From Thalassotalea sediminis (lineage in GTDB: Bacteria > Pseudomonadota > Gammaproteobacteria > Enterobacterales > Alteromonadaceae), in NCBI RefSeq assembly GCF_030295915.1, contig NZ_AP027361.1:2542001-2606000 (forward strand): DNA of 64,000 bases, given 5' to 3'. A program made the translations under genes and the position numbers. Below the pieces are notes generated by a model. The model ran no database searches and was not told where the DNA came from. It saw nothing but the letters and a program-made list of their open reading frames with translations. Of the stretch, positions 35,153 to 37,590 are shown piece by piece; the first letter of the stretch is position 1; every line of letters starts with the position of its first letter.

Positions 35153-35270
35153 TGGCGATGACGGAGAGATTATAAAATACTTCCCTAAATTTTACCCTAC
35201 GGGTCGCTATCGCGTTCAATTGGGTTCCTGACCAAATTGTCGAACTCTAACGTTCTCATCTCTCCTAACG
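35153..35270 (-). repeat. tRNA-associated repeat ending in a copy of the tRNA-Ser 3' end
   Basis: Positions 35153-35171 repeat the last 19 bases of tRNA-Ser (35301-35319) with one mismatch. Between this copy and the terminator of the tRNA lies a sequence with the hairpin CAATTTGG / CCCAATTG around TCAGGAA, GAACGCG and GACCCGTAGGG (minus strand). The same layout occurs next to tRNA-Lys at 37082-37243. This resembles the tyrT repeats (RtT) of E. coli. Confidence 0.65.
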
Positions 35271-35296
35271 TAAAAAAACCTGCATATGCAGGTTTG
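35271..35296 (-). terminator. Terminator of tRNA-Ser
   Basis: Minus-strand AACCTGCATATGCAGGTT followed by a run of T, five bases after the tRNA 3' end. Confidence 0.8.
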
Positions 35297-35300
35297 AAGA

Positions 35301-35479: not shown

Positions 35480-35532
35480 AGCAGTGCTTTTTCCAGGCGG
35501 TAACGCCCCACTCGGACACGTCACCTAAATTT
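35480..35532 (-). pseudogene. Decayed tRNA-Ser copy
   Basis: The leader and first bases of tRNA-Ser (AATTTAGGTGACGTGTCCGA, read on the minus strand) are repeated exactly. Then the sequence jumps to a piece of the anticodon arm (GCCTGGAAA) and the 3' half is lost. Confidence 0.7.
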
Positions 35533-35594
35533 GATTCATATATAACGATAAGCTTTTTACAGTGTTTATCGACACTGGGTGATCTGGCTGAGCA

Positions 35595-35645
35595 CGCCAG
35601 GCGTGATTTAAACCTTGGCAGCCACTCGGACACGTCACCTAAATT
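35595..35645 (-). pseudogene. Second decayed tRNA-Ser copy
   Basis: Same leader and 5' end as the intact tRNA-Ser on the minus strand, including GAGTGGCTG, followed by an unrelated stretch and CACGCCTGG from the anticodon arm. The 3' half is missing. With the copy at 35480 it shows a former tandem tRNA-Ser array. Confidence 0.7.
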
Positions 35646-35705
35646 AGATTCTTTTTTAACAAACAAGCTTTTTAAACTGAGCCTGAAAAAGCTGCGCTAT
35701 GTTAG

Positions 35706-37081: not shown

Positions 37082-37243
37082 TGGTCGGTCGTGAAGGATT
37101 TACTCCGTACATCCTGTACTTCACCTATGGGCCGCTTCGCGTTCAAAATTGTTCCTGACAATTTTGTGAACCTTCTTCTCGGTTCAAATTATTACGATTA
37201 AAGAACTATTTCGTTTGAATGTAATAGATGTATAGAAAGAAGG
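37082..37243 (-). repeat. tRNA-associated repeat ending in a copy of the tRNA-Lys 3' end
   Basis: Positions 37082-37101 repeat the last 20 bases of tRNA-Lys exactly. On the minus strand the interval contains the hairpin ACAAAATTGT CAGGA ACAATTTT, GAACGCGAAGCGGCCC and GTACAGGATGTAC. It is related in order and sequence to the repeat next to tRNA-Ser (35153-35270). Confidence 0.7.
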
Positions 37244-37319
37244 TGGTCGGTCGTGAAGGATTTGAACCTTCGACAAATTGGTTAAAAGCCAACTGCTCTA
37301 CCAACTGAGCTAACGACCG
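37244..37319 (-). tRNA. tRNA-Lys (anticodon TTT), copy 3
   Basis: 76 bases with encoded CCA. Anticodon arm TTGGC TTTTAAC CAA..., anticodon TTT; D arm GCTCAGTTGGTAGAGC; T arm GAAGG TTCAAAT CCTTC. The acceptor stem is CGGTCGT / ACGACCG, so base 1 is C where E. coli has G. Identical to the other two copies. Last of the three in transcription order. Confidence 0.95.
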
Positions 37320-37374: not shown

Positions 37375-37450
37375 TGGTCGGTCGTGAAGGATTTGAACCT
37401 TCGACAAATTGGTTAAAAGCCAACTGCTCTACCAACTGAGCTAACGACCG
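37375..37450 (-). tRNA. tRNA-Lys (anticodon TTT), copy 2
   Basis: Identical 76-base copy, 55 bases from copy 3 and 64 bases from copy 1. Probably one transcript with both. Confidence 0.95.
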
Positions 37451-37514: not shown

Positions 37515-37590
37515 TGGTCGGTCGTGAAGGATTTGAACCTTCGACAAATTGGTTAAAAGCCAACTGCTCTACCAACTGAGCTAACGACCG
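37515..37590 (-). tRNA. tRNA-Lys (anticodon TTT), copy 1
   Basis: Identical 76-base copy, nearest to cpoB. It lies 147 bases after the cpoB stop codon, so it may be read from the end of the tol-pal transcription unit or from its own promoter. Confidence 0.95.

Follow-up and report, generated by a model that had tools for sequence, protein, structure and literature searches.

Hairpin cassettes within copied tRNA 3' ends of Thalassotalea sediminis and their relation to RtT RNA

The units downstream of tRNA-Lys and tRNA-Ser

The stretch of DNA analysed here (the window; 64 kb) contains two similar units that each lie downstream of a tRNA gene; both units and all of their parts are found on the minus strand. 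The Lys unit (162 bp, 37082..37243) follows the minus-strand gene for tRNA-Lys(UUU) (37244..37319), which is the source of its copied end. Further tRNA-Lys genes at 37375-37450 and 37515-37590 are without such a unit. Read from 37243 to 37082, the Lys unit terminates with AAATCCTTCACGACCGACCA, which reproduces the final 20 nt of tRNA-Lys without mismatch, as already noticed in a sequence-only reading of this DNA. Since GAAGGTTCA directly precedes the spacer, the copied stretch actually comprises 28 nt rather than 20, i.e., GAAGGTTCA^AATCCTTCACGACCGACCA (GAAGGTTCA^AATCCTTC...CCA), and is split at the T-loop by a cassette of 66 bp. That is, the left half of the direct copy (GAAGGTTCA, 37167..37175) provides the T-stem and the 5' half of the T-loop, the cassette (CAAAATTG...GGAGTA, 37101..37166) is placed within the T-loop, and the right half (AATCCTTCACGACCGACCA, 37082..37100) completes the tRNA end. 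To set the cassette boundaries, we compared the unit to tRNA-Lys itself and to the cassettes found at loci L145 and L243 (see below). The cassette harbours three hairpins, namely hairpin 1 (AAAATTGT-CAGGA-ACAATTTT, 37145..37165; based on fold and covariation), hairpin 2 (CGC-GAA-GCG, 37133..37141; based on sequence and fold) and hairpin 3 (GTAC-AGGAT-GTAC, 37107..37119; based on sequence and fold). In addition, a degenerate inverted copy of the tRNA-Lys T-arm is present at 37181..37190 (AATTTGAACC vs. GATTTGAACC), which is better kept in Lys units of the same genus.

The Ser unit (148 bp, 35153..35300) is located downstream of tRNA-Ser(GGA). Here, the 8-bp inverted copy GGAGAGAT (35258..35265) pairs with ATCTCTCC of the copied end (pairing P1). 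The left half of the copied tRNA-Ser end (GAGTTCGA, 35240..35247) is followed by a 69-bp cassette (35171..35239) and by the right half (ATCTCTCCGTCATCGCCA, 35153..35170), which agrees with the tRNA in 17/18 positions. By its sequence, an intrinsic terminator-like hairpin with a T-run (35272..35295) is placed between tRNA-Ser and the unit. On the 5' side of the gene, the tRNA-Ser(GGA) 5' end and its leader (AATTTAGGTGACGTGTCCGAGTGG) occur in two extra copies upstream of tRNA-Ser (35508-35546 and 35622-35660, minus strand), after which pieces of tRNA-Ser appear in scrambled and partly inverted form. The 5' side forms a mirror image of the 3' units.

Both units consist of the same parts in the same order, i.e., hairpin 1 with its CAGGA loop, GAACGC, hairpin 2, a CCC/GG(G) element, hairpin 3, and TA followed by ATC. 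The arms of hairpin 1 differ between the units and nevertheless pair (AAAATTGT/ACAATTTT for Lys; CAATTTGG/CCCAATTG with one mismatch for Ser). The likeness of spacer order and CAGGA hairpin, which the sequence-only reading had pointed out, is confirmed by R2, a covariance model built from 16 copies (found via RF00391 in other genera, plus E. coli), none of which is from this genus. When the 64-kb window is scanned with R2, these two copies are the only matches, with 51.7 bits for Ser (E 1.6e-10) and 50.1 bits for Lys (E 4.2e-10, match 37095-37172). E-values of these covariance models are rough, the margin for both copies being large. Elsewhere in the genome, one further good copy follows tRNA-Pro, another is placed between atpB and atpE, and a decayed copy is found after tRNA-Tyr. 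Near-identical cassettes are present in records assigned to Thalassotalea, in agreement with the genus of the window.

Distribution of the family and its host gene ends

An RtT model search in 185 genomes of the class provided matches in 33. At all 30 RtT-match loci examined, a tRNA (Gln, Tyr, Ser) or tmRNA gene is present upstream on the same strand, immediately so in 29 cases and 287 bp away in one (L048). A search with the core-only covariance model R1 identified copies in 87/119 genomes of the taxonomic family and 97/398 genomes of the phylum, with 4 to at least 38 copies per genome; four R1 matches fall into the tyrT-tyrV locus of E. coli K-12. Copies of the family are thus found at hundreds of sites among many proteobacteria, which include E. 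coli as well as members of other classes. One architecture is observed across the alignment, i.e., the host end in inverted orientation, a short loop, the left direct half (GGTTCGA), the cassette, and the right half (ATCC...CCA). We also scanned viruses with a loose left-half pattern, but none of the 49 resulting stretches is a real cassette.

Next, we consider whether the copied end belongs to the neighbouring gene. Among 122 copies found within 150 nt of a tRNA or tmRNA gene, 70 match at least 14/16 letters of their own host's end, while no comparison of these copies with other host kinds reaches this value. The summed identity to the own host end is 1562 over the 122 copies, compared to a permutation mean of 1088 and a maximum of 1146. 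In the remaining 52 copies, the end copy is decayed or placed differently. The idea that the repeat takes on the 3' end of the preceding tRNA is hence sustained for this majority, but the hosts extend beyond tRNAs: besides tRNAs of about ten kinds, we find tmRNA, 5S rRNA, atpB and tuf (the latter assigned from reading the sequence and not from a family search). Downstream of rRNA operons, the 5S rRNA end is copied, with an inverted copy on the left; one example reads ...CATGTGAGAGTAGCACACCGCCAGG, terminator, GTGCACTCGAACATGG, AATGTGA[cassette]GTAGCACACCGCCAGG. In L220, the copied end is that of the protein gene tuf, and in L249 the cassette is located at the tuf stop codon. A cassette without RNA host is also found at the apparent atpB end, in the atpB/atpE interval, of two congeneric genomes (L088, 1501-1583; L104, 707-789).

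Location was assessed in seven complete genomes, where 77/122 matches (63%) are at most 700 bp downstream of, and on the same strand as, a tRNA, 5S or tmRNA gene. The chance expectation for such stretches is about 1%, roughly estimated from their extent. The repeat is therefore clustered at stable RNA genes and not equally common away from tRNA genes. The other matches in these genomes are found at D-loop-like tRNA sites, antisense tRNA-like sequences and plain intergenic DNA. The earlier picture of a repeat tied to tRNA ends has to be modified accordingly: the cassette is situated inside the copied end and not beside it, an inverted copy is often present on the other side, and a minority of copies is without an RNA gene. 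In one genome (G298), cassette relatives at four loci (L099, L100, L101, L103) have TTTTACCACGAA...-type repeats on their flanks, along with palindromic clusters that give matches on both strands, i.e., they are BIME-like.

For the inverted copy, a 10-mer test finds 15/48 units with at least 9/10 matching letters vs. 5.6% in permutations; this test is weak alone, and the pair count given below is the better one. A T-run between gene and unit is present in 29/48 intervals vs. 21/52 downstream controls, and we consequently do not regard an intervening terminator as a general feature of the units.

The genome also contains end copies that are free of any cassette (loci L011, L014, L016, L018, L024). 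These arrays of tandem 3' end copies are observed downstream of tRNA-Asn (142 bp, five times), tRNA-Met (101 bp, six times), tRNA-Val (100 bp, six times), tRNA-Leu (181 bp, three times, decayed tRNA-Leu genes) and tRNA-His (104 bp, once).

The cassette as a discrete unit and the pairing of its arms

The cassette is sharply delimited, and its interior is conserved in a sequence of its own. The cassette of L145 (75 bp) is inserted in frame within hsdS at GGTTTGA^ATCCC, i.e., at a T-loop look-alike where no RNA gene is present. Homologues of hsdS without cassette show the uninterrupted GLNPNAPM (AVTKGLNPNAPM, DNA GGCCTAAATCCTAATGC in Shewanella), and the comparison reveals no target duplication; this is the one protein-gene insertion for which an empty site was compared in detail. 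L243 comprises five perfect 72-bp cassettes head to tail, with TTCGA on the left and ATTCC on the right. Two joined cassettes are also found in the second unit after tRNA-Pro in two congeners (L158 in G283, L077 in G250), where the second cassette begins at the GGAATA end of the first. The base directly before the hairpin 1 stem is A in 101/113 copies and is preceded by G in 76/113. This GA is found in front of the cassette across T-loops (TTCGA), D-loop-like sites (GGCTGA), 5S (TGTGA), antisense tRNA copies (GGCGGA) and tuf (ATCGA). The ends of the cassette (C..GAGTA) are not inverted repeats, its palindromes being subterminal. Given this and the lack of target duplication in hsdS, we rejected a classification as MITE.

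Filled and empty sites, proposed earlier as a check, both exist within the genus. Of five congeneric species, G000 and G676 have the unit at tRNA-Ser(GGA), and G205, G250 and G283 lack it. For tRNA-Lys, units are located after the first and second gene of the cluster in G205 and G283, where G000 has none; its unit follows the third. The mean cassette likeness between different hosts within one genome (0.663) is not above that between different genera for the same host kind (0.706), which implies that most copies are old and inherited in place. Homogenisation within a genome, taken as a sign of recent transposition, is not seen. The guess of a small mobile element is borne out in part, i.e., by the insertion in hsdS and by the perfect cassettes in tandem. 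A link to a RAYT/Y1 transposase was rejected: none of the 18 Y1_Tnp loci of 14 genomes has a cassette match nearby, four genomes with 19-34 copies are without Y1 transposase, and at the transposase loci examined no RAYT gene is flanked by the repeat.

We also folded both units as single-stranded DNA. Compared to dinucleotide shuffles, z-scores of -2.5 (Ser unit) and -3.6 (Lys unit) are obtained. The fold of the Ser unit is exactly the arrangement described above, P1 included; for the Lys unit, hairpins 1 and 2 form and the 3' end pairs differently.

The covariation of the arms, a test set beforehand, was evaluated on 69 distinct copies. In the respective model-fitted alignment, 94.6% of the cells hold standard pairs vs. 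68.0% when shuffled, with 396 vs. 116 double changes, while controls with slid pairing reach only 31-43%. An unfitted MAFFT alignment yields 90.1% vs. 66.7% paired cells and 98 vs. 28 double changes. Covariation is likewise seen between the inverted copy and the end copy to which it pairs (86.8% vs. 75.5%; 40 vs. 14.8 double changes). The arms hence covary, as anticipated from the two units of the window. Their pairing, earlier attributed to selection for structure, may be kept up by RNA selection, by DNA selection or by template switching. G-U pairs account for 8/1127 standard pairs of hairpins 1-3 (0.7%) compared to 3.3% for 153 tRNAs of these loci (acceptor and T stems), where the Fisher value is merely indicative given that pair cells are not independent. 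The low number of G-U pairs points to a maintenance of the palindromes at the DNA level rather than the RNA level.

Relation to known systems and possible origin

Neither unit is matched by Rfam at gathering thresholds; matches are sub-threshold only. The Ser copy aligns end to end with RtT (RF00391) at 19.8 bits, compared to a gathering score of 45, and the Lys copy is not listed. By the cut-off of RF00391 itself, the window units are outside that family. On the other hand, RtT RNA/RttR of the E. coli tyrT operon shares the order of parts, the fold, the repeated 3' end of the preceding tRNA and the tandem units; the window units are found downstream of a tRNA whose 3' end they repeat; and their whole core is homologous to RtT copies of other genera (R2 E-values above). 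Judged by this sequence homology, the family includes E. coli RtT/RttR, such that it can be seen as an enlarged RtT superfamily with the behaviour of a non-autonomous DNA cassette maintained by its structure, and this kind of repeat is already known in so far as E. coli RtT belongs to it. RtT aside, our literature search found no account of the family. A difference remains, i.e., RF00391 models an RNA with one tRNA-like end, whereas here the end varies with the host (5S and tuf included) and the core is separable. The E. coli copy downstream of tyrV is annotated as the small RNA RttR, and PMC4986893 (citing Bosl and Kersten 1991) reports it as an RNA product. The consensus of AaHKsRNA22 from Aggregatibacter (RF02902) shows the same order (hairpin, GAACG, hairpin, GGCCC..GGGCGA, hairpin, GAGUA). 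It is filed as an unrelated sRNA and its match to the Lys copy is just 15.9 bits (E 0.63), but from this order of motifs RF02902 probably belongs in one clan with RF00391.

Among mobile elements, PATEs, i.e., non-autonomous IS200/IS605 derivatives described in Haloquadratum (PMC3119063), are similar in that they lack both terminal inverted repeats and target duplication, carry palindromes near their ends, are preceded by a fixed short motif, and are too short for a transposase. In contrast, we found no Y1 transposase with matching ends, and the cassettes reside in duplicated gene ends with inverted copies. Membership is not established, as the partner element was searched for and not found. 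REP/BIME elements with RAYT are likewise small, extragenic, palindromic and sometimes clustered repeats; the present family differs by its ties to stable RNA genes, its copy number range and the lack of a RAYT neighbour among the loci examined.

By a narrow balance, we favour the reading that the units contain an old hairpin DNA cassette, non-autonomous and slow to move, whose entry sites are T-loop-like sequences within duplicated gene ends. The members of the family are short non-coding cassettes of about 65-80 bp that form three to four hairpins and lack terminal inverted repeats. On this reading, they would enter directly 3' of GA, mostly at T-loop-like GGTTYGA^ATCC, and leave no target duplication. 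Their main location in spare 3' end copies of genes with strong expression (tRNA, tmRNA, 5S rRNA, tuf) would be explained by a T-loop sequence common to all tRNAs and by the fact that insertion into a duplicated end spares the real gene. A unit would thus seem to adopt its neighbour's end because that end pre-existed or was copied from the neighbour and was not borne by the cassette. The cassette may move as folded single-stranded DNA served by an enzyme in trans, similar to IS200/IS605. Simple insertion does not explain the inverted copy of the host end, which needs a second process; the flanking inverted and direct copies may arise via template switching at the gene end, our preferred guess since the genome also contains decayed tRNA-end arrays without cassette. 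The missing partner enzyme, the slow movement, the inverted copy and the annotation of RttR as RNA all speak against this reading.

The last of these points leads to a functional RNA, i.e., an RtT-like small RNA cut from the stable-RNA transcript, with the copied 3' end aiding processing or recognition and selection acting on the RNA fold. The strong covariation of the hairpins and the covarying pairs between inverted copy and copied end fit this explanation, as do the location of the unit on its host gene's strand and its conservation at the same host kinds over genera. RtT has furthermore been reported in Pasteurellaceae and tied to the stringent response (PMC4986893). We nevertheless consider this explanation rather unlikely, given the scarcity of G-U pairs, the clean hsdS insertion, the tandem bare cassettes, the copies without RNA gene and the easy gain and loss among congeners. 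An intrinsic terminator between gene and unit, as possible for tRNA-Ser of the window, would also count against it, though T-runs are frequent in the controls, too.

If no mobile cassette is assumed, template switching during replication and unequal recombination could generate the end copies, and the cassette would spread by such copying alone, via the shared GGTTCGA/ATCC flanks. The cassette-free arrays described above, in which decayed ends of tRNA-Asn, -Met, -Val, -Leu and -His are repeated, and the inverted plus direct host-end copies at tRNA, 5S and tuf are in line with this, the target flanks in hsdS equal those of the tRNA copies, and paired arms without G-U intermediates would be expected from quasi-palindrome correction. 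However, the 5S, tuf and atpB sites match the T-loop by (N)GA only, which is too little for homology, and the cassette's sharp ends and conserved interior do not fit either, such that we regard this scenario as distinctly unlikely. The 3' ends of tRNA and tmRNA genes are classical integration sites, and direct repeats of these ends flank the unit. One could therefore take the repeated ends for attL/attR scars of a tiny or decayed integrative element with a tyrosine recombinase. This is very improbable, as the copied end is split by the cassette with an inverted copy alongside, one cassette family is found at about ten tRNA kinds plus 5S and tuf, contrary to the site specificity of integrases, and 66-75 bp are far below the length of an integrase gene.

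Taking the favoured reading of a hairpin DNA cassette further, the family may represent an unrecognised class of mobile DNA, i.e., a hairpin cassette of 65-80 bp with T-loop-like targets that ranges from E. coli to other proteobacterial classes, resides in inverted-and-direct ends of tRNA, tmRNA, 5S rRNA and tuf genes, and is moved by an enzyme or by replication, with RtT as one resident copy. We put this forward tentatively, as a possibility slightly short of an even chance. The family raises the question of how a cassette gets between the inverted and direct end copies of whichever essential gene precedes it. So far, RtT has been classed as an RNA of tRNA operons in enterobacteria and Pasteurellaceae, its role in the stringent response being vague. 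If the above holds, RtT would be a single member of a large group of tiny DNA cassettes in many proteobacteria, and sRNAs annotated as RtT-like or AaHKsRNA22-like would have to be revised.
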